From Roseicitreum antarcticum (GTDB lineage: Bacteria > Pseudomonadota > Alphaproteobacteria > Rhodobacterales > Rhodobacteraceae): DNA of 64,000 bases. Shown here piece after piece: positions 39,619-49,576 of the stretch. The notes below the pieces were generated by a model. That model saw only the letters and a list, made by a program, of their open reading frames with translations, had not been told where the DNA came from and searched no databases. Numbering within the stretch: the first letter of the stretch is position 1; every line of letters begins with the position of its first letter. The stretch covers positions 2,431,501-2,495,500 of the forward strand of contig NZ_CP061498.1 of NCBI RefSeq assembly GCF_014681765.1, given 5' to 3'. Both the position numbers and the translations under genes were made by a program.

Positions 39619-40641
39619 ATGCGGCCAACTACAAAAGACCTCGCACAGGCGGCAGGTGTCAGCCTTGCCACCGTGGACCGTGTGCTGAACGCGCGACCGG
39701 GCGTGCGCCAGAAAACCGTCGATGCGGTGAACGAGGCGATTCAGCGGATCGGATTTGAACGCAACCTGGTCGCCGCCACACTTGCGCGCAAGAAGGGCTA
39801 TACCTTCGGATTTGTCCTACCCCGCAAGGGGGATGAATTCATGGCCGAGATCCTGCACCATATCCGCGAAAGCCACAAAGCGGGCCGGGCGGAGATGGCC
39901 GAGATCAAGGCACTGCGGTTGGACGAACAGGACCCTCACAAGACCGCCGAGGCGCTGAACCGTCTGACACTGCAAGAGGTCGATGGCGTTGCAATCATGG
40001 CGCCCCAGACCCCGCCGATCCGCGATGCCATCCGCCGGATGCGCGAACGTGGCATCCGTGTCGTCCCCTTCATTGCCAATCAGCAGGACGGCGGCGCGAC
40101 CAGTTTCGTGGGCATCGACAATATTGCCGCCGGCGCCACTGCGGGCCAACTGATGGGCCGGTTCGCGGGTGGGCGGGCTGGCGCGGTTGCCGTGATGACC
40201 GACACCATTCAGGCGCGCGACAGTCTGGAACGGCGACTGGGCTTCGACAATGTCATCAACCAGATGTTTCCCCGCCTGAACGTTCTGCCTTCGCTCGAAA
40301 CACACACCGACCCCGACCGAACGCACCGCATCATTACCAAGACCTTCGAGACGCAGCACGACCTTGTCGGATTGTATATCATGGGGTCTGAAGCCCGTGT
40401 CCCGGTCGAGGCGATGCGCCGCTTTCCCCAAAGCGCAAACCTGATTGCGATCGCACATGAACGGACCCCCGCCACGGTCGCTGCGTTGCGTCAGCGCACG
40501 CTTGATGCGGTTGTGACTCAAGACCCCGGGCATCTGGTGCGCAGCGCGGTGCGGATCTTGCGCGCGGAGTGCGAAAACCGGGTGATTGTGGCCTCGCAGG
40601 AAAAGATCCGCATCGAGATTCTACTGGCAGAAAACCTCTGA
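39619..40641 (+). CDS. LacI family transcriptional regulator
   Basis: 340-aa regulator. The N-terminal helix-turn-helix TTKDLAQAAGVSLATVDRVLNARPGVRQKTVD matches LacI, with a sugar-binding periplasmic-protein-like core (GFVLPRKGDEFM... DGVAIMAPQTPPI... FVGIDNIAAGATAGQLM... AVVTQDPGHLVRSAV). ATG 39619 fits the family start (MRPTTKDLA); the region before it holds the twin operator. It is divergent from the transporter operon and most likely its repressor. Confidence 0.92.
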   Translation: MRPTTKDLAQAAGVSLATVDRVLNARPGVRQKTVDAVNEAIQRIGFERNLVAATLARKKGYTFGFVLPRKGDEFMAEILHHIRESHKAGRAEMAEIKALRLDEQDPHKTAEALNRLTLQEVDGVAIMAPQTPPIRDAIRRMRERGIRVVPFIANQQDGGATSFVGIDNIAAGATAGQLMGRFAGGRAGAVAVMTDTIQARDSLERRLGFDNVINQMFPRLNVLPSLETHTDPDRTHRIITKTFETQHDLVGLYIMGSEARVPVEAMRRFPQSANLIAIAHERTPATVAALRQRTLDAVVTQDPGHLVRSAVRILRAECENRVIVASQEKIRIEILLAENL

Positions 40642-40859
40642 CCATCCGGATGCTGCACCCACCTTTAGGGTGCCCATGGCGCGAACCACTGGGCGGCTCC
40701 GCGAAAGACAATGTGCCGCGACCTGTGGCCGTTAAGGCGCGGAAGCAGGGCAACAGACACTTTTTCGTTAGCCGCCTGTGTGTCAGCTTTCCTTCATTAG
40801 CAATTTTGTATAGCACGTATAGCTAGTTTTGATGAAGATGTTGATTATCCGGGGAGTGC

Positions 40860-41555
40860 ATGATGGCTGGGCGTCGTATTATGCTTGCAGTTTCAGCAGT
40901 CGCCTGTTTGGCGTCGGTCATCAGCCTGATGCGGGAATATCCGGCTGCGGTTTTTGCACGTGATGACTCCTTTCTGAAGCTCAACATCCTGTCACAGTCT
41001 GACACTCTGCAGTCCGCGCAGGTTGGATTGCCGGGTATTCCTGACGTACCAATGTCATGGCGGGGGCAGCGCGATCTGCTCCGGGGGTGCAGCGACGTGC
41101 AATCCGACACGACATTCCAATTCATGCCCGCCGACACCCGGGCCAGTACGCATCAGAACTGCCTCGATGTCGCGCAACAGGTGCTGGATCGTGCGCCGAC
41201 AGTTGGTCTGGCCCATCTGGTTCAGGCGGTCGCATTTGATGGACTTGGCCGGGCACAGGAACGCGACCGCGCCTTGGCTGTGTCCCAGGCGCATGCCTCG
41301 TTTGAAGGCTGGCAAGCCATCCGCCGGATACGTGTCGGCCTGCCCGCGCTGGACACGCTCAGCACCGACGCAAGGGCTGCATTGTCAGCGGACATCGCGT
41401 TTCTGATGATTGAACGATGGGGCATTGAGCAGATCGCGCCCCTGTTCATTTCTCTGCCCGACGCGCGGGAGTTCATTGAATCTGTGGCGCAGCAGGCAAA
41501 GCCGCAAAGCCAGCGGCAGCTCATCAGCGCTTTGCGCCGATATGCGCAGGGTTAG
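40860..41555 (+). CDS. Exported protein of unknown function at the head of the exopolysaccharide cluster
   Basis: 231-aa protein with an N-terminal hydrophobic segment (about residues 8-22, MLAVSAVACLASVIS) that acts as a signal or anchor. The mature part contains a cysteine pair (GCSDVQ...NCLDVAQQ) and helical stretches (VLDRAPTVGLAHLVQAVAFDGLGRAQERDRALAVSQ) that resemble a TPR-like helical scaffold. GGGGAG is 3 nt before the ATG. It lies 55 bp upstream of the ligase/polymerase gene. I do not recognise a family; a periplasmic helper in polymer assembly is inference. Confidence 0.65.
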   Translation: MMAGRRIMLAVSAVACLASVISLMREYPAAVFARDDSFLKLNILSQSDTLQSAQVGLPGIPDVPMSWRGQRDLLRGCSDVQSDTTFQFMPADTRASTHQNCLDVAQQVLDRAPTVGLAHLVQAVAFDGLGRAQERDRALAVSQAHASFEGWQAIRRIRVGLPALDTLSTDARAALSADIAFLMIERWGIEQIAPLFISLPDAREFIESVAQQAKPQSQRQLISALRRYAQG

Positions 41556-41610
41556 CTTTTCTGACCCGAATCGCCGGTAATCAGATTGAAGAAGAAGAAG
41601 GGTTCTTAGA

Positions 41611-43092
41611 ATGGCAGACTGGCTGGATACGCCGGCGGCAACGTCGGAAACAGCGGGGTGGGTATCGATCAAGAAACCGTCAGCCGGGCGCAGCGGAAAG
41701 CCAAATTTGAAAGACAACTTCGTTATATCGCCCGAACATACCAAGCTGAACAATCGGCTTGCGCTTTTGTTGGTCGCAATCATGGTCCTGGCCCCGATCC
41801 CGCTGGCCAGCCACCGCCCGGTCTGGTGGCTTCTATTGGGAATCGTGATCAGCGGTATTGCCGTGTGGCATCTTGTCCGGGGCAGCCGCATCGCGCCCGA
41901 CCGCACCTTGCAGATGTTCAAGCACGCCCCGCTTTTCCTGATGGGGCTGGCTGTCGTGGTCTTCGCGGTACTGCAAGGGTTGCCTATCGCGGCGATCATC
42001 CCTGACGCGTTGTTGCGGCTTCCCGAAACCATGGTGCCCGGCCCGGTCCTGCACACGATCAGCATTGTGCCGGATGCGAGCATCCTAGGCGCGCTGCGGA
42101 TCACCATATACCTTTGCTTTGTGGCCTTGGTGCTGGAGGCTGCCGCGCAACCCAACCGTGGCGAACGAATGGGGTGGTTGTTGTTCTTTGGCATCACGGC
42201 CCACGCGGTCTGGGGCCTAGTATCGCTCAATTTTCTGGGTGACACGCTGCTGTTTGGCGAAAAGACCGCGTATCAAGGGATGGCGACCGGAACGTTTGTG
42301 AACCGCAATTCTTACGCGACATTTCTGGGGTTTGGCATCGTCCTGGGGATTGCCCTGTCGCTGGATCGGCGGATCGCGCCGCGCATCCGGGCCTCACGCG
42401 ATCCTGGCTGGCTCAGCCCCGAGCGGATCGAGATGCTGGGCATCTGGGCGATGATCGCGATGATCACTCTTGCGCTGCTGGCGACCCAATCGCGAATGGG
42501 GGTCGGTGCAACGGCGGTTGCGGGGCTGTTGACCTTTGTCGTCATGCGGATCAAGCAGGGACACAGCACCGCCGCAACCCTGCTGACCGGGGGAATTGGG
42601 TTTGTGATCTTCGCGGCCATTGCCCTTTTGCGCGGAGGGCAAGGGGTGCTGGAGCGGTTCATCTTCGTCGAAGGCGCGTCGGAAACCCGGGCAGACTTCT
42701 ACAGCCAGATTCTGGGGATGATCGGCAACCGTCCGTTTACCGGTTACGGGTTGGACGCTTTTGCCCCAGCGTTTGAGCTGCACCGCGCCCCGCCCATTAC
42801 GGCACCTCTGTATCTGGACATGGCCCATAACTCTTACCTGACTCTGTGGGCCGAGATGGGGCTGCTGTTTGGCAGCCTTCCGATCCTGGCGTTGATTGGT
42901 GCTGCGGTGATCATCTTGCGCCGGATTGCGCGGCGCACGACTGACCTGGCCATGCCGGTGGCCGCGCTGGGCATCATATGCTTGGGGGGGCTGCATTCGC
43001 TGGTCGATTTCAGCCTGGAGATTCCGGCAAATGTGCTCGTTTTTCTGGCCGTGATCGCCATTGGGGCGGCGCATCGACCCATTGGGCGGTAG
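41611..43092 (+). CDS. O-antigen ligase / Wzy-like polysaccharide polymerase family protein
   Basis: 493-aa inner-membrane protein with about 11-12 hydrophobic segments and the large periplasmic loop between late helices that is typical of the Wzy_C family. The loop contains GTFVNRNSYATFLGFGI upstream and ADFYSQILGMIGNRPFTGYGLDAFAPAF...DMAHNSYLTLWAEMGLL, with the conserved Arg and the AHNxYL motif of this family. An N-terminal cytoplasmic stretch of about 45 residues is longer than usual. It probably joins repeat units on the periplasmic face. Confidence 0.85.
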   Translation: MADWLDTPAATSETAGWVSIKKPSAGRSGKPNLKDNFVISPEHTKLNNRLALLLVAIMVLAPIPLASHRPVWWLLLGIVISGIAVWHLVRGSRIAPDRTLQMFKHAPLFLMGLAVVVFAVLQGLPIAAIIPDALLRLPETMVPGPVLHTISIVPDASILGALRITIYLCFVALVLEAAAQPNRGERMGWLLFFGITAHAVWGLVSLNFLGDTLLFGEKTAYQGMATGTFVNRNSYATFLGFGIVLGIALSLDRRIAPRIRASRDPGWLSPERIEMLGIWAMIAMITLALLATQSRMGVGATAVAGLLTFVVMRIKQGHSTAATLLTGGIGFVIFAAIALLRGGQGVLERFIFVEGASETRADFYSQILGMIGNRPFTGYGLDAFAPAFELHRAPPITAPLYLDMAHNSYLTLWAEMGLLFGSLPILALIGAAVIILRRIARRTTDLAMPVAALGIICLGGLHSLVDFSLEIPANVLVFLAVIAIGAAHRPIGR

Positions 43093-43221
43093 CTGTCGCT
43101 GCGATGCGCAGCTTTCCGGCCGCAGTGGCGCGTAATTTGTCATAAATCAGATCCAAAGGGCCTGTAATCGTCGGGTGAGTTTGCTTTACTGTGTCGCAAT
43201 AAACTGGAGTAGGGTGGCGCG

Positions 43222-44001
43222 ATGCTGCGATGGCTAAGCAAGGCACTGGGCGGAGCGGCGACACCGAAACCCGACGGGCAGACGGTCAGTTTTCTGGAAC
43301 ACGGCCCGCTGACCGGGCCAGTCTATGTGGTCGGCGACGTTCACGGGTGCCATGCCCTCTATCGTCGGCTGGAAGCGCAGATCCTGCGCGATGCGAACAC
43401 ATTGACCGGCAGTCCCGGCATCGTTCTATTGGGCGATGTGGTGGACCGCGGTCCGGAAACGGCCGATATGCTGGACCTTCTGACCGACAGGCCCCCAACC
43501 GGGGCCACCCGGCTTTGCCTGCGCGGCAACCACGAAGACATGATGCTGAATTTTCTCAATAATCCGACCATGACCAGTTCCTGGTTGGATTTTGGCGGGT
43601 TCGAAACGCTTATGTCCTACGGCCTAGCGCTCGATATGGAGACGGCACCTTCGCCGCGGCGCTTGCAGCAGATGCTTCAGGCGCATATTCCGCAGGCACA
43701 TCGCGACTTTCTTGAGCATTTGCCATATGGCATGCAGGTTGGCCCCTATGCGTTGGTTCATGCAGCAATTGACGTGGCTGCACCACTTGATCGACAGCCG
43801 CGCCAAACTGTCCTGTGGGGCGATCCGGTGGATGCGGGGCCGCACGATGTCACCGTTATTCACGGTCATACCATTGTTCCACAGCCAATTATCGAGGAGG
43901 GGCGCATCGCGCTGGATACCGGGGCATATGACACGGGTGTTCTTACCGCAGTACGGCTGCACCCGGATATGCCGCCGAAAATTTTGCAATGTCATGCCTA
44001 A
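43222..44001 (+). CDS. PPP-type metallophosphoesterase (serine/threonine protein phosphatase-like)
   Basis: 259-aa two-metal phosphatase with all PPP signatures: GDVHGC near residue 39, GDVVDRG near 73, RGNHE near 98, and later His residues in LVHAAID and VIHGHT. This is the bacterial PrpA/ApaH-related type. It sits between the polymer ligase and the BY-kinase of the exopolysaccharide cluster. Most such clusters carry a low-molecular-weight Tyr phosphatase or a PHP phosphatase in this place, so it may be the counter-phosphatase of the kinase (inference). Confidence 0.85.
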   Translation: MLRWLSKALGGAATPKPDGQTVSFLEHGPLTGPVYVVGDVHGCHALYRRLEAQILRDANTLTGSPGIVLLGDVVDRGPETADMLDLLTDRPPTGATRLCLRGNHEDMMLNFLNNPTMTSSWLDFGGFETLMSYGLALDMETAPSPRRLQQMLQAHIPQAHRDFLEHLPYGMQVGPYALVHAAIDVAAPLDRQPRQTVLWGDPVDAGPHDVTVIHGHTIVPQPIIEEGRIALDTGAYDTGVLTAVRLHPDMPPKILQCHA

Positions 44002-44140
44002 GCCATAACAATCTGCGACGCACGTTAGGGTTGAGTCCGGTATTCTGACCCATTTAGGGTTGTTCTAATTTGAAATCAAATGATAAGGCATCGGCGTCAC
44101 ATAAGGCCCCGGACCTGTCGGGCAAGCGGAGAATCAAGGT

Positions 44141-46345
44141 TTGCAACAAGCTGAAATCGACCTGAAAGACATCATATCGATTTTGCGTCGGCAAAGGCGC
44201 TTGATCTTACTTACAATGGCAATCATCGTCGGTGCGGCGCTTGCATACCTGCTTTCCGCGACGCCAATCTACCGTGCCACAGCGCTGGTGCAGATTGATG
44301 TCGGCGGCTCCAACCTGCTGGACCCTAATGCGGGCAACAATCAGCAAAGCCAGATCCTGAACTCCAAGGTTGACAGCGAAGTGGAGATCTTGCGGTCGGC
44401 GGCAACCTCGCTTGCCGTGATCGAGCAGGGCGATCTGTTGTCAGACCCCCGGTTCGGCCCGCAGATTGGCCTGACCGAAAAGGTAGGGCAGATGCTGGGC
44501 CTTAACTTGACCGGCGCCGGCATTCGTCGGGCGCTGGGGCTCAACGTGAGCGCCCCGGATGGCGCGCAGCTGGTCAATTCCACGCTGAATCGCCTCCAAA
44601 ACGCCACGGAAATCCGTCGGCGGGGGCTTACGTACCTGATTTCGGTGTCGGTTTCTTCCGAAGATCCGGCCAGTGCAGCGCGTTTGGCCAACCTGACTGC
44701 GACCACCTATATCGAGCGGCAGGTAGAGGCCAAGACCGATGCAACGATCGCGGCGCGCGATGTTCTGCAACGGCAGCTTGACACTGCGCGCAGCGACCTT
44801 GCCCGCGCTGAAGACACGCTGAACAACTTCATCGAAGATAACCTTGCACGGCTGGAAGCCGAAAGCGGCAGCGCTTCGGTCGCTGCCCTGCGCCGCCAGC
44901 TGGAAGAGGCACAGTCCGAAAGTTTGAGCAGCGTCGCCGCTGTGGAGGCCATCGAGACCGCCGCCGCGCGTGGTGATTGGGCCAGCCTTGCCGAAAACCT
45001 GGAAAACCAAGCCTTGGCCTCGCTGGAGCAACAGCGCGCCGATCTGGCCCAGCAACTCGCGGGGGCCACGCCCGGCTCGGCTCAGGAGGTCAATCTGCGC
45101 GATGCTGTTGCCTCCATCGAGCAAAGCCTGGCCGAGCAGGCAAATGCCCTTGTCGGGTCACTTCAGGTCGAGATCAACACGCTTCAAGACCGGCAAGAGA
45201 CCGCGCGGGATTCGTTGCGTGAAGTGCTGTTGCAAAGCGATTTGTCATCAGACCTCCTGGGAGACCTGTTCAGCCTGCAACAAAGTGCAAACGTTGCCCG
45301 CAATCAGTACCAGCAGCTTCTGACAAGGGTGCAGGATGTTGGCACGCTGGCCAATCTTCAGATCGCCGACGCCCGTATCGTGTCCGAGGCGCTGGCGCCC
45401 AACAGCCCGGCATCGCCCAACATGAAACTGGTTCTGGCGACGGCGCTGGTCGGCGCCATCGGACTGGGGGTCGGGCTTGCCTTCCTGAACGAGTATTACA
45501 TCGGTGGTGTCACGTCATCCAGTCAGTTGCGCAACATCTTGCAAGCCAATGTCCCGGTGACGATCTCGAACCAGACGCCGTCAAAAGAATCCAAGGTGTT
45601 CTCTGACCAGATCGTAACGGCACCCCTTTCGGTTTATTCCGAGAGCTTCCGCAAGCTGCGGTCTACGATCGACATTTCCTTCCGTGACCAGAACGCCCGG
45701 CTTGACAATGATGAGACGACGACGGCTTCGGCACGTTCCAAGGTCATATTGGTCTGTTCAGCGCTGCCCGCCGAGGGCAAGACCACCAGCGCCCTGTCGT
45801 TGGCACGGACCTATGCGGCATCTGGGATCGACACGCTGTTGATCGACGGCGACATGCGCAAACCGTCGCTGCACAAATATCTTGGTGTGGAAAGCGAAAC
45901 TGGGCTCTTGTCGTTCCTGCGCGACACCGGCAACGACCCAGAAACCATGCTGCACCCGATCCGCGATCCCCTGAGCGCGCTGACGGTCATCACGGCGGGT
46001 CCGCGCAGCAATGAGCCGACTGACCAGTTGTTGGGCGGGAATTCGTTCAACTACCTGATCAAGGCCGCGAAGCGGGAATTCGGTGTCATCATTTTCGACT
46101 CGCCGCCTTTGCTGCCCGTTGTCGATGCGCGTTACCTGGCGCAGCATGCCGATGCTGTCGTGATGGTTGTCCGCTACGCGACCACCACCCAGGGCGAGGT
46201 GCGCGAAGCCTCGTCGCAGGTCCAGGAAATGATGCGCCCGGGCGCCAGCATGATTGGTTTGCTGAGCCATGAGGTGCGGTCGCACAAGAAAAGCAATTAC
46301 TACAGCAACCGCTACTATGCGAGCGCGTATAACCGCGAAGCGTGA
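44141..46345 (+). CDS. Polysaccharide co-polymerase with fused BY-type tyrosine kinase (Wzz/Wzc-like)
   Basis: 734-aa protein controlling chain length and export of exopolysaccharide. The N-terminal Wzz domain has helix 1 at about residues 24-40 and a coiled-coil periplasmic part (about 190-400). Helix 2 lies near 430-450, followed by the cytoplasmic kinase: Walker A LPAEGKTTSAL near 545, Walker A' LLIDGDMRKP near 567, Walker B IIFDSPP near 650. The Tyr cluster NYYSNRYYASAY at the extreme C-terminus is the autophosphorylation site. The start is TTG 44141 with GGAG 9 nt upstream; no in-frame ATG exists before a stop codon at 44102. It overlaps the convergent sugar transferase gene by 31 bp. 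Confidence 0.92.
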   Translation: MQQAEIDLKDIISILRRQRRLILLTMAIIVGAALAYLLSATPIYRATALVQIDVGGSNLLDPNAGNNQQSQILNSKVDSEVEILRSAATSLAVIEQGDLLSDPRFGPQIGLTEKVGQMLGLNLTGAGIRRALGLNVSAPDGAQLVNSTLNRLQNATEIRRRGLTYLISVSVSSEDPASAARLANLTATTYIERQVEAKTDATIAARDVLQRQLDTARSDLARAEDTLNNFIEDNLARLEAESGSASVAALRRQLEEAQSESLSSVAAVEAIETAAARGDWASLAENLENQALASLEQQRADLAQQLAGATPGSAQEVNLRDAVASIEQSLAEQANALVGSLQVEINTLQDRQETARDSLREVLLQSDLSSDLLGDLFSLQQSANVARNQYQQLLTRVQDVGTLANLQIADARIVSEALAPNSPASPNMKLVLATALVGAIGLGVGLAFLNEYYIGGVTSSSQLRNILQANVPVTISNQTPSKESKVFSDQIVTAPLSVYSESFRKLRSTIDISFRDQNARLDNDETTTASARSKVILVCSALPAEGKTTSALSLARTYAASGIDTLLIDGDMRKPSLHKYLGVESETGLLSFLRDTGNDPETMLHPIRDPLSALTVITAGPRSNEPTDQLLGGNSFNYLIKAAKREFGVIIFDSPPLLPVVDARYLAQHADAVVMVVRYATTTQGEVREASSQVQEMMRPGASMIGLLSHEVRSHKKSNYYSNRYYASAYNREA

Positions 46346-47031
46346 GTACCGTCTCGCCGCCGCAGGTCACCCCCCATCGGGATCTTGCGGCGGCGCCTGG
46401 GTAGGCGGCGGCTGTGCCTCGGCAGAAGCCCGAACGCCCGTCCCGCCGTTACCGCGATCAGCCACAGGTCGGTCCGTACCGATGCGTGCCGCTGATAAAG
46501 CAGGTCCAGACGCGCCTTGTAGGGGATGCAGCGACGACGATAGGTGGCGTCGGTTTCTGCGGGCGTGCTGCATTGCGCCAGCAATTTCTGCTCGTGTTGG
46601 CTGTATACCAACGTGGCCAATCCCGTGATCCCCGGTCTTGCGCGCAGGACGCGTGCGTATAGTTCTGGAAACGCCTCGACATATAGTCGGAGCGGGGCGC
46701 GCGGGCCGACCAGTGACAGGTCGCCACGAATGATGTTCCAGGCCTGTGGCAGTTCATCGCCGCGGGTGCGCCGGAGTAGCCGGCCGGTTGGTGTCAGCCG
46801 CGCGGTCTTGTGCCCACCCGATACGCCGCTGTCACCTGGGTCGGGGCGCATCGTGCGTAGCTTCCAGAACAGGAAGGGCTGGCCCGGGGCGCGCATCCGC
46901 TCGGACACATAAAACAGCGGCGACCTATCACGCCACCTGAGCAGCACCAGCGCATAAAGCAGAACTGGTACCACCATCCAGGAAATCGCCAGCAGGAACG
47001 CCAGATCGAATATGCGTTTCTTCCATGTCAT
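46315..47031 (-). CDS. Initiating sugar transferase (undecaprenyl-phosphate phosphosugar transferase)
   Basis: 238-aa monotopic enzyme that loads the first sugar-phosphate onto undecaprenyl phosphate. One N-terminal hydrophobic helix (about 8-32) precedes the catalytic domain with FWKLRTMRPD, RLTPTGRLLRRTRGDELPQAWNIIRGDLSLVGPRAP and RPGITGLATL, all diagnostic of the WcaJ/ExoY/PglC superfamily. The short tail after residue 200 is unusually Arg-rich (RHSRRLPRRRRK) and is encoded opposite the end of the kinase gene. It lacks the extra N-terminal helices of WcaJ, as in ExoY. Confidence 0.9.
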   Translation of the reverse strand: MTWKKRIFDLAFLLAISWMVVPVLLYALVLLRWRDRSPLFYVSERMRAPGQPFLFWKLRTMRPDPGDSGVSGGHKTARLTPTGRLLRRTRGDELPQAWNIIRGDLSLVGPRAPLRLYVEAFPELYARVLRARPGITGLATLVYSQHEQKLLAQCSTPAETDATYRRRCIPYKARLDLLYQRHASVRTDLWLIAVTAGRAFGLLPRHSRRLPRRRRKIPMGGDLRRRDGTHASRLYALA

Positions 47032-48103: not shown

Positions 48104-49576
48104 TCAGACCGGGATCAAGTGCAGCAGCATGAACAGCAGTGCCGCCAGCCCGGCCGTGGCCGGCACCGTTACCACCCAGGCTGCGACAATCGTCAGGAAA
48201 TGCGACCGCCGGACCAGCTTGCGGCGGGCACGTTCCTCCGGGGGCAGTCCAGTATAGGCGCGGTTCTTCTTCAATATCCGTTCGTGATACCATTCGCGAA
48301 AAAATCCAACGCCAAATATCCCGCCAATCGCGATATGCGTCGAACTTACCGGCAGGCCCAACCATGAGGCGATGATGACGGTAATCGCCGCCGACAGCGC
48401 GACGCAATAGGCACGCACCGCATTCAACCGGGTGATCTGGCTGCCCACCATCCGGATCATCCGTGGCCCGAACATCAGCAGGCCCAGCGACAGCCCGGCA
48501 GCGCCAATGGCCATGATCCACAAAGGAATGGCCACGGATTCGGTCGCGCCGCGTCCTTCGTTCACCGCCGTGACAATTGCGGCCAGCGGACCGACCGCAT
48601 TGGCGACATCATTCGCCCCATGCGCAAACGACAGCAGCGCCGCAGAACACACCAGCGGGATCGAAAACAGCACCTTGAGCGACTTTTTCCGGTTTTCCAG
48701 CCCGCGCGACTGGCGGCGGATGACCGGGCGCATGGCAAGGGTCAGCACTACCGTGGTGCCCAGCCCGATCAGCGCCGATGTGGTGGGGGTGATGTGCAGT
48801 ACCTTGTTCACTCCCTTGATCGACAGATAGATTGCGAAGGCCCCACCCATTACCCCGATCAGCAACGGCACCCAGCGCCGTGCCGCCGACAGGATATCCG
48901 GGGTATATATGATGCTCGTCTTGATGAAGGCCAGAATGGCCGCCGCCAATACCCCGCCCATCAGGGGCGAGATTACCCAACTCGCAGCGATGGCACCCAT
49001 CGTCGGCCAGTTGACTGACATCAGGCCCGCAGCGGCGATACCCGCACCGACGACCCCGCCGACGATCGAATGGGTGGTCGAGACCGGGGCGCCCAGCCAA
49101 GTCGCCAGATTGATCCATAATGCCCCGGCCAGCAGCGCTGACATCATTGCCCAGATGAAAACCGCAGGCTCGGCAACTGCCTCTGGCGCGACGATCCCGC
49201 GCGACACGGTGTCGATGACATCGCCCCCGCCAAGCAACGCCCCTGCGGTTTCAAAGACGGCGGCAACCACCAGCGCGCCGCCCAGCGTCAGGGCCTGCGC
49301 CCCGACGGCGGGCCCCATGTTGTTGGCAACATCGTTGGCGCCGATGTTTAGCGCCATATAGGCCCCGATGATCGCTGCAGCGACCACGATCAGGCTGTGC
49401 GGTTGTTGCCCGGTCAACACCGCTGCGATCAAACCCACGATAACCATGAACGCCAGCGCCACGCCCGGACCGATCAGCGGACGCGCGACATGCAGGCTGG
49501 CCTGTTCCAGAACGGCAATCCGCTCCAGATCCTTGTTGAGGGTCTTCCACTCGTTCTCGGGGGGGGGGTCGGTCAA
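48104..49576 (-). CDS. Inorganic phosphate transporter (PiT family)
   Basis: 490-aa low-affinity phosphate carrier. Two PiT signature repeats are visible, IGANDVANNMGPAVGAQALT near residue 77 and AHGANDVANAVGPLAAI near 325, with paired PVSTTHSIVGG and PVSSTHIAIGG motifs. About ten to twelve hydrophobic segments. The start is TTG 49576 with AGGA 5 nt upstream; I found no in-frame ATG nearby. Codons 3-6 contain ten consecutive C residues, so one base gained or lost would truncate the protein after a few residues. Confidence 0.9.
   Translation of the reverse strand: MTDPPPENEWKTLNKDLERIAVLEQASLHVARPLIGPGVALAFMVIVGLIAAVLTGQQPHSLIVVAAAIIGAYMALNIGANDVANNMGPAVGAQALTLGGALVVAAVFETAGALLGGGDVIDTVSRGIVAPEAVAEPAVFIWAMMSALLAGALWINLATWLGAPVSTTHSIVGGVVGAGIAAAGLMSVNWPTMGAIAASWVISPLMGGVLAAAILAFIKTSIIYTPDILSAARRWVPLLIGVMGGAFAIYLSIKGVNKVLHITPTTSALIGLGTTVVLTLAMRPVIRRQSRGLENRKKSLKVLFSIPLVCSAALLSFAHGANDVANAVGPLAAIVTAVNEGRGATESVAIPLWIMAIGAAGLSLGLLMFGPRMIRMVGSQITRLNAVRAYCVALSAAITVIIASWLGLPVSSTHIAIGGIFGVGFFREWYHERILKKNRAYTGLPPEERARRKLVRRSHFLTIVAAWVVTVPATAGLAALLFMLLHLIPV
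49559..49568 (-). repeat. C10 homopolymer (minus strand) just after the PiT start codon
   Basis: Ten C residues in codons 3-6. Such tracts slip in replication and can switch genes on and off, and they are also prone to sequencing error. Confidence 0.8.

Follow-up and report, generated by a model that had tools for sequence, protein, structure and literature searches.

Wzc-type kinases autophosphorylate a C-terminal cluster of tyrosines that a phosphatase resets, and cycling between the phosphorylated and unphosphorylated states is thought to be needed for the production of capsule or EPS. CpsB/YwqE, of the PHP type, are metal-dependent phosphatases that reset BY-kinases in this way. Two published systems come closest to the gene studied here. 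In a 2014 description of a Caulobacter gene cluster, CCNA_00167 bears the label 'Wzb-like metallophosphatase' and has Wzc-like and Wzy-like genes as neighbours; cells from which it was deleted were non-capsulated, a phenotype that was complemented (PMC4241560). In the Pss-I region of Rhizobium leguminosarum, PssZ, a PPP enzyme of 263 aa, is needed for EPS, the pssZ mutant being left with 1.09% of the wild-type high-molecular-weight EPS fraction (PMC6071215). PssZ has been called a Ser/Thr phosphatase, and its loss is reported to alter the transcription of many genes. PssP of R. leguminosarum, according to the part of the report covered, has no Tyr-rich region, though PssZ is in its cluster (PMC7020829). 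Dephosphorylation of a kinase is not reported in the parts of the Caulobacter and PssZ papers that were covered (PMC4241560, PMC6071215), and in the open-licence literature we recognised neither an assay of a PPP enzyme on a BY-kinase nor any biochemistry of the PPP subfamily described below.

The window, the whole stretch of 64,000 nucleotides that was analysed, contains a gene for a PPP-family phosphatase within the following set of features:

40860-41555, forward strand: conserved 231-aa partner, N-terminal TM-like helix followed by an all-helical TPR-like domain (model; no family match)
41611-43092, forward strand: Wzy_C protein of the O-antigen ligase/polymerase family, 493 aa (Pfam 1.4e-14)
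43222-44001, forward strand: PPP-family metallophosphatase, the subject of this report (ORF, Pfam, alignment, model)
43225-43248, forward strand: short N-terminal helix, residues 2-9, in an extension of ~32 residues (helix in the model, low pLDDT)
43333-43347, forward strand: metal-ligand motif GDVHG, with D39 and H41 (sequence; invariant in the PPP_A and PPP_B sets defined below)
43432-43452, forward strand: motif GDVVDRG, with D72, D75 and R76 (sequence; D72 and D75 invariant, R76 at 0.95-0.96)
43525-43539, forward strand: motif GNHED, with N103, H104 (catalytic by PPP analogy) and E105 (sequence, alignment)
43912-43929, forward strand: LDTGAY, the (I/L/V)D(S/T)G 'bacterial-type PPP' motif plus the aromatic residue Y236 (alignment; motif named in the part of PMC535813 covered)
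44141-46345, forward strand: BY-kinase/polysaccharide co-polymerase with Wzz, GNVR and AAA_31 family matches, TTG start, 734 aa
45728-46306, forward strand: kinase domain (TIGR01007 match, E 1.3e-33)
46289-46342, forward strand: Tyr-rich C-terminal tail with five Tyr, the presumed autophosphorylation cluster (sequence)
46315-47031, reverse strand: convergent Bac_transf sugar-1-phosphate transferase, a priming enzyme (Pfam 3.2e-39)

The open reading frame of the phosphatase spans exactly 43222-44001 (forward strand), starts with ATG and encodes 259 aa. Its sole Pfam match is Metallophos (2.2e-10, above the cut-off); it is negative for LMWPc, the Wzb family, and for CpsB_CapC, the CpsB/YwqE PHP family. 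The motifs GDVHG, GDVVDRG and GNHE, with the later histidines H180 and H216, place it in the PPP family, and LDTG at residues 231-234 supplies the bacterial-type motif. In a 101-sequence alignment D39, H41, D72, D75, H104, H180 and H216 are invariant and N103 is kept in 0.99-1.0 of the rows, and the AlphaFold model, with a mean pLDDT of 91.6, has the PPP fold. A chance or mis-annotated ORF is out, since there are homologues of up to 54% identity and all catalytic residues are kept. Inspection by eye revealed no signal peptide or TM segment. Members of the subfamily have a median of 36-41 N-terminal residues before GDXHG, as against 15.5 in paralogue controls, start codons being uncertain; the extension is often basic-hydrophobic (for example MLRWLSKAL), and the N-terminal helix may be a membrane tether.

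The protein encoded downstream has the Wzz/GNVR regions, Walker A (CSALPAEGKTTSA), Walker A' (LLIDGDMRKP) and Walker B (VIIFDSPP) motifs of a BY-kinase, by patterns that we take to be those of the class, and five Tyr among its last 30 residues. The upstream gene had been called a polymer ligase; it may equally be a Wzy polymerase, because the family match is to Wzy_C. The 231-aa protein (40860-41555) has no Pfam or NCBIfam family. Its model is all-helical (pLDDT 90.7) with an N-terminal TM-like helix, and a PDB search returned nothing at E 0.001, the best match being a TPR domain at 0.04. Scanning 40600-46600 for promoters and terminators was uninformative (three promoter-like sites against 1.8, sd 1.4, in shuffles; ten terminator-like sites against 6.3, sd 2.6). 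A PHO4-type phosphate transporter gene is found at 48104-49576 on the reverse strand (Pfam 2.5e-104), the top NCBIfam name for which, sulfate permease, is far below its cut-off. The earlier note on this DNA had described a two-metal PPP enzyme between a polymer ligase and a BY-kinase, occupying a slot usually held by a Wzb- or CpsB-type phosphatase. The position of the ORF between the Wzy_C gene and the BY-kinase gene bears out this placement; the motifs, metal ligands and fold of the PPP protein are intact, and neither the Wzb nor the CpsB family occurs among the neighbouring proteins scanned in the cluster.

The locus resembles that of CCNA_00167 in that a metallophosphatase gene is clustered with genes for a Wzc-type kinase and a Wzy polymerase/ligase; the Caulobacter cluster, in the parts of its description covered, also has a Wza-like translocon, HvyA and a lipoprotein, whereas the window has a compact arrangement of 231-aa partner, Wzy, PPP enzyme and kinase. 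With PssZ it shares a PPP protein of ~260 aa in an EPS region and, in the Rhizobium case, required for EPS (PMC6071215). By the published account covered, the pssZ gene lies outside any operon and the first motif of its product is SDVHG; the window protein has GDVHG and its gene is flanked by those for Wzy and a Tyr-tailed kinase. Both CCNA_00167 and PssZ are likened to the window protein by their published descriptions, in so far as these were covered, and not by sequence. As with Wzb-type LMW-PTPs and Wzc, a small phosphatase gene adjoins the kinase gene, and the family sampled below contains eight LMW-PTP pairs of that kind; yet the LMW-PTPs are Cys-based and of unrelated fold, and their kinases form a separate clade. 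Like CpsB/YwqE, the window protein is of a metal-dependent phosphatase type, but it belongs to another family, and CpsB_CapC has 0 matches in the genome.

The earlier note had also proposed a genome search for a dedicated wzb or cpsB gene elsewhere. In the source assembly (4.25 Mb, 99.75% complete), which has one BY-kinase match at E up to 1e-15, none was found among the tyrosine phosphatase families covered, LMWPc, CpsB_CapC and Y_phosphatase3. CpsB_CapC was without a match; LMWPc matched two proteins, both of which score better with arsenate-reductase models than with Wzb, one being fused to an ArsR-type domain. The single Y_phosphatase3 match was marginal (22.3 bits against a cut-off of 22.2) and has the Cys loop HCRAGVGRT. 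The gene for this dual-specificity-like Cys phosphatase lies at G000:C1:1071429, ~1.4 Mb from the window cluster, with no obvious polysaccharide neighbours when the ORF list was read by eye. A second PPP protein of the genome is 32% identical to the first, and the 18-kb slice around its gene (L115) has no kinase, Wzy or sugar-transferase match; a third PPP-like match is short and weak (E 0.005). The sole Poly_export match of the genome (G000:C1:1092425; L230, L231) is far from the window cluster.

We then turned to 149 genomes of the window's family, each of a different genus. Among the matches listed, a PPP protein at E 1e-8 or better was present in 141 of these genomes. We refer to the 81 top-scoring rows, those with E no higher than 2.5e-28, as PPP_A and to the 70 weaker listed rows as PPP_B, a division that is a score cut and not a clade. 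Kinases were identified by TIGR01007, those with an open frame of at least 580 aa being counted as full-length (103 among the matches listed), and LMW-PTPs by LMWPc, for which the 86 strongest rows were counted as LMW-PTPs proper, since ArsC-like proteins occur in the weaker class. Among the matches listed, a full-length BY-kinase was present in 61 of 73 genomes with PPP_A as compared with 16 of 76 without (OR 19, p 6e-15, phylogeny ignored), and strong LMW-PTPs showed no association with the kinase (42/81 genomes with and 35/68 without; OR 1.0). The association with PPP_A held in each of four genome-size strata, the genome medians being 3.8 and 3.9 Mb, and genome size does not explain it. Twelve PPP_A genomes had no full-length kinase among the matches listed; on the same basis, only 16 of the 77 kinase genomes were without any PPP_A, and several genomes whose kinase has neither phosphatase gene nearby carry PPP_A elsewhere.

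Among the matches listed, the 103 full-length kinases had PPP_A within 12 kb in 36 cases, a strong LMW-PTP in eight and both in none; within 25 kb the counts were 40, nine and one, which leaves 55 kinases with neither. Slices around 20 of these 55 were sampled, and all 20 were without both phosphatases. Viewed from the PPP side, a kinase lay within 12 kb of 39/81 PPP_A genes and 1/70 PPP_B genes (Fisher p 4e-12, among the matches listed); the single PPP_B case, in G046, has an E of 1.6e-26, just below the cut, with the PPP gene 2 kb from the kinase gene, and its kinase is one of the 55. The PPP subfamily is therefore linked to the BY-kinase and co-occurs with it, phylogeny being ignored, and these counts show that the placement of the PPP gene beside the kinase gene is more than chance. 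That no locus has both phosphatases carries little weight by itself, because ~2.8 of 103 would be expected by chance (p ~0.03, hand arithmetic) and the eight LMW-paired kinases form one clade. Genomes with a PPP-linked kinase are not enriched for lack of a strong LMW-PTP, which was missing in 15/34 of them as compared with 68/149 of all genomes, among the matches listed.

Slices of up to 18.5 kb were fetched, some being much shorter at contig ends. A kinase was found in 37 of 80 family PPP_A slices, leaving 43 without one; 50 of the 80 held a kinase, Wzy or sugar transferase, and none an LMW-PTP. The control slices around PPP_B paralogues held no kinase, Wzy, sugar transferase or LMW-PTP (0/20). 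A further 80 named loci came from scanning GTDB contigs with a profile in which the window protein was the lead sequence, and this sample leans towards relatives of that protein; 41 of these held a kinase and none an LMW-PTP, so that LMW-PTPs number 0/160 over both slice sets. The named loci with a kinase were distributed by order as 32/46 in Hyphomicrobiales, 3/3 in Rhodobacterales, 0/10 in Rhodospirillales and 0/3 in Sphingomonadales. Related PPP genes are also present in capsule/EPS loci with no annotated kinase in view, for example on the Marinovum plasmid pMaD9.

At 20 loci, the window, eight others from the family and 11 named ones, Wzy and kinase genes each lie within 700 bases of the PPP gene. 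The existence of these triads, which include loci of Devosia, Rhizobium, Pelagibacterium, Limimaricola and Marivita, removes the possibility of an idiosyncratic insertion in one genome. Beyond them, a Roseinatronobacter plasmid and the Rhizobium rosettiformans plasmid p1 each carry an annotated O-antigen ligase, metallophosphoesterase and tyrosine autokinase, arranged as at the triads and preceded by a hypothetical protein that is likened to the 231-aa partner by length alone. Searching with an iterated profile, we found homologues of the 231-aa protein at 19/20 triads, at 17/59 other kinase-linked loci, at a few unlinked ones and, weakly, at one PPP_B control; because the domain is TPR-like, the weaker of these may be general matches. 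The 231-aa protein is probably a further part of the polysaccharide machine, and from its occurrence at the triads the unit probably comprises four genes, for the 231-aa partner, Wzy, the PPP enzyme and the kinase.

In the PPP tree the window protein falls within a supported set of 11 triad rows, nested in a supported set of 51 rows that contains all 20 triads, 19 other kinase-linked rows and 12 unlinked ones. A clean split of PPP_A and PPP_B into clades was not obtained, the 20 PPP_B loci requiring 10 changes and not forming one clade. Two positions separate PPP_A from the controls. Residue 105 is E in 19/20 triads, 52/59 other kinase-linked rows and 57/82 unlinked subfamily rows, and D in 18/20 paralogue controls; the residue after LDTGA is Y or F in 19/20 triads and Y, F or W in 55/59 other linked and 72/82 unlinked rows, and G or A in 17/20 controls. 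These residues mark the subfamily and not linkage as such. The arginine that we presume to be the second phosphate-binding residue, as in lambda PP, corresponds to W-x-R in the PDB-profile alignment, and here the window protein reads W-G-D. By an automatic tally, which for some rows chose the wrong W or none, this position is R in 15/20 paralogue controls, H in 17 and R in five of 28 readable kinase-linked non-triad family rows, and variable within the triads (R in ten and D in six of 20).

In a tree built by FastTree from 97 kinases, of which 69 are PPP-linked, eight LMW-linked and 20 without either gene (picked from the 55), all eight LMW-linked kinases fell in one clade with full support, and the window kinase in a supported set of 23, of which 22 are PPP-linked and one has neither gene. 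A pattern search recognised Walker A in 29 of the 33 PPP-linked kinases, the window kinase included, and in 8/8 LMW-linked ones. The median number of Tyr in the last 30 residues was 5 in triads (n=8), 7 in other PPP-linked kinases (n=24) and 6.5 in LMW-linked kinases (n=8); the sole tail with zero Tyr, at L083, runs off a contig end. A Tyr tail alone does not point to a PPP enzyme, because the sampled kinases with neither phosphatase mostly retain their tails too.

We consider that the window PPP enzyme is the dedicated phosphatase of the BY-kinase/Wzy machine, acting on kinase phosphotyrosine, at about even chances; that it has some role in polysaccharide assembly is a safer statement. The BY-kinase would autophosphorylate its own Tyr tail, and the PPP protein, a cytosolic enzyme with two metals that its N-terminal helix may anchor to the membrane, would strip phosphate from that tail. 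This reset would let the kinase/co-polymerase cycle between states, with polymer being made and exported, so that the PPP enzyme, though unrelated in fold, would take the part played elsewhere by Wzb or CpsB. Our evidence consists of the gene order, the intact catalytic residues, the tendency of the PPP subfamily and the kinase to occur in the same genomes, and a genome search in which neither Wzb nor CpsB was found; we infer the phosphotyrosine substrate and the membrane tether, and the loss of capsule or EPS on mutation comes from the similar genes of others. Counted against the kinase-phosphatase reading are the 55/103 kinases with neither gene among the matches listed, and one four-gene unit from which the PPP gene is missing: at L250 (G019:C15, 2714-6902), on a 10.9-kb contig, the 231-aa partner, Wzy and kinase genes follow in order. 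The L250 genome has no LMWPc match and one weaker PPP match, among the matches listed. By analogy, and as far as the published accounts were covered, PssP without a Tyr tail and the broadly transcriptional effect of pssZ loss also count against it. The suggestion of the earlier note that the PPP enzyme is a different means of resetting the Tyr cluster thus stands in part: the Wzb slot is filled by a PPP gene and no dedicated Wzb or CpsB was found elsewhere among the families covered, but the kinases with neither gene within 25 kb, among the matches listed, and the reported lack of a Tyr region in PssP speak on the other side.

An alternative that we regard as unlikely, though worth serious attention, is that the PPP enzyme belongs to the machine but leaves the kinase tail alone, its targets being phosphoserine, phosphothreonine or mixed sites of another protein; a regulator, a sugar-nucleotide enzyme or the priming transferase could be such a protein. 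PssZ would then serve as the precedent, as it was named a Ser/Thr phosphatase and, in the account covered, its loss nearly abolishes EPS and shifts many transcripts; the reported lack of a Tyr-rich region in PssP is consistent with this, as is the presence of PPP_A in polysaccharide-type slices that have no kinase (50/80 with a kinase, Wzy or sugar transferase, 37/80 with a kinase). The strong co-occurrence of PPP_A with the kinase across genomes, among the matches listed, may speak against this alternative.

The fold gives some support to a non-protein substrate, for example a dinucleotide or a pyrophosphate-linked carrier from polymer synthesis, a reading that we consider improbable. Structural Z scores were highest for an ApaH-like enzyme (23.3) and the PnkP phosphatase domain (23.2), followed by RLPH2 (22.2), lambda PP (21.4) and ApaH (19.3), and in a Foldseek search of the model lambda PP came first and RLPH2 sixth. 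With protein, nucleotide and polynucleotide phosphatases lying within two Z units, the fold search left the substrate undecided. The top NCBIfam matches include PnkP and ApaH, all far below their cut-offs, and the ApaH/PrpE/PrpA/PnkP equivalogs are missed widely (best 53.1 bits against cut-offs of 176-750). Hydrolysis of lipid-linked intermediates, where it is needed, takes place on the periplasmic side, yet the PPP protein has, by eye, no signal peptide or TM segment; a nucleotide substrate would leave the tie to the BY-kinase unexplained. More improbable still is that an unlinked Cys phosphatase, encoded at G000:C1:1071429 or by an ArsC-like LMW gene, resets the kinase and the PPP enzyme has an unrelated role at the same locus: such genes exist in the genome, and 55/103 family kinases have neither PPP_A nor a strong LMW-PTP within 25 kb (among the matches listed), but both LMW proteins match arsenate reductase best, one as an ArsR-type fusion, kinases of the family show no association with strong LMW-PTPs (among the matches listed), and the dual-specificity-like gene was without obvious polysaccharide neighbours in the ORF list read by eye.

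An enzyme that bears on dephosphorylation of the kinase tail by the PPP enzyme is Arabidopsis RLPH2, a 'Rhizobiales-like' PPP tyrosine phosphatase. According to the parts of the literature covered, bacterial PPPs have been credited with broad specificity or even with specificity for Tyr, and the bacterial relatives of RLPH2 belong to Rhizobiales, Rhodobacterales and Rhodospirillaceae (PMC535813); RLPH2 itself, a plant PPP related to alpha-proteobacterial ones, prefers phosphotyrosine by way of a deep pocket (PMC12817480). The likeness to the window protein lies in the alpha-proteobacterial type of PPP (PMC12817480, PMC535813) and in a narrow top profile match, the subfamily profile giving RLPH2 (5vjv) at 3.1e-22 ahead of matches at 5.2e-21 and 1.4e-20; the two differ in that identity is 25% over the structural alignment and the reported substrates of RLPH2 are plant MAP kinases. 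Of the RLPH motif LXXAXPXXH, P157 and H160 are nearly invariant, with L at P-5 and, in the window protein by eye, H and not A at P-2. The case for a special kinship of RLPH2 with the linked subfamily loses weight, since RLPH2 is the best PDB match of the unlinked paralogue too and the window sequence alone prefers lambda PP. From these mixed RLPH2, lambda PP, ApaH-like and PnkP matches, the sequence allows, and does not prove, phosphotyrosine activity.

The kind of arrangement described here is already in print, for CCNA_00167 of Caulobacter and PssZ of Rhizobium, and our interpretation is partly anticipated by the parts of those reports covered. As far as our searches go, the family-wide association of a PPP subfamily, and not LMW-PTP, with BY-kinases is new within the literature searched, as are the correspondence between kinase clade and type of phosphatase, and the compact unit of four genes. 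We would suggest tentatively, as a proposal somewhat short of an even chance, that in alpha-proteobacteria a PPP enzyme is a standard cognate tyrosine phosphatase of one large BY-kinase lineage, a third independent fold besides LMW-PTP and PHP, and that BY-kinase reset is a native task of the 'Rhizobiales-like' PPPs, themselves a possible source of RLPH2. A strong LMW-PTP gene lies within 12 kb of only 8/103 full-length kinases of the family, among the matches listed. If PPP enzymes reset these kinases, the missing phosphatase would be supplied for a part of the class that includes Caulobacter and rhizobia; this could explain the loss of polysaccharide in CCNA_00167 and PssZ mutants, and would give a bacterial function to the PPP group that may be the origin of a plant tyrosine phosphatase.

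At a further locus, L111 (G123:C1:2230500-2248500), the PPP gene and the neighbouring BY-kinase gene are both fragmented, and the pair may have decayed together; the same genome keeps a second PPP-kinase locus, L078. One family genome has two tandem PPP genes (L104, 8003-8740 and 8740-9510, both on the reverse strand). Two BY-kinase matches with identical scores lie on one contig, at G065:C10:77489 and G065:C10:135012, which suggests a recent duplication.
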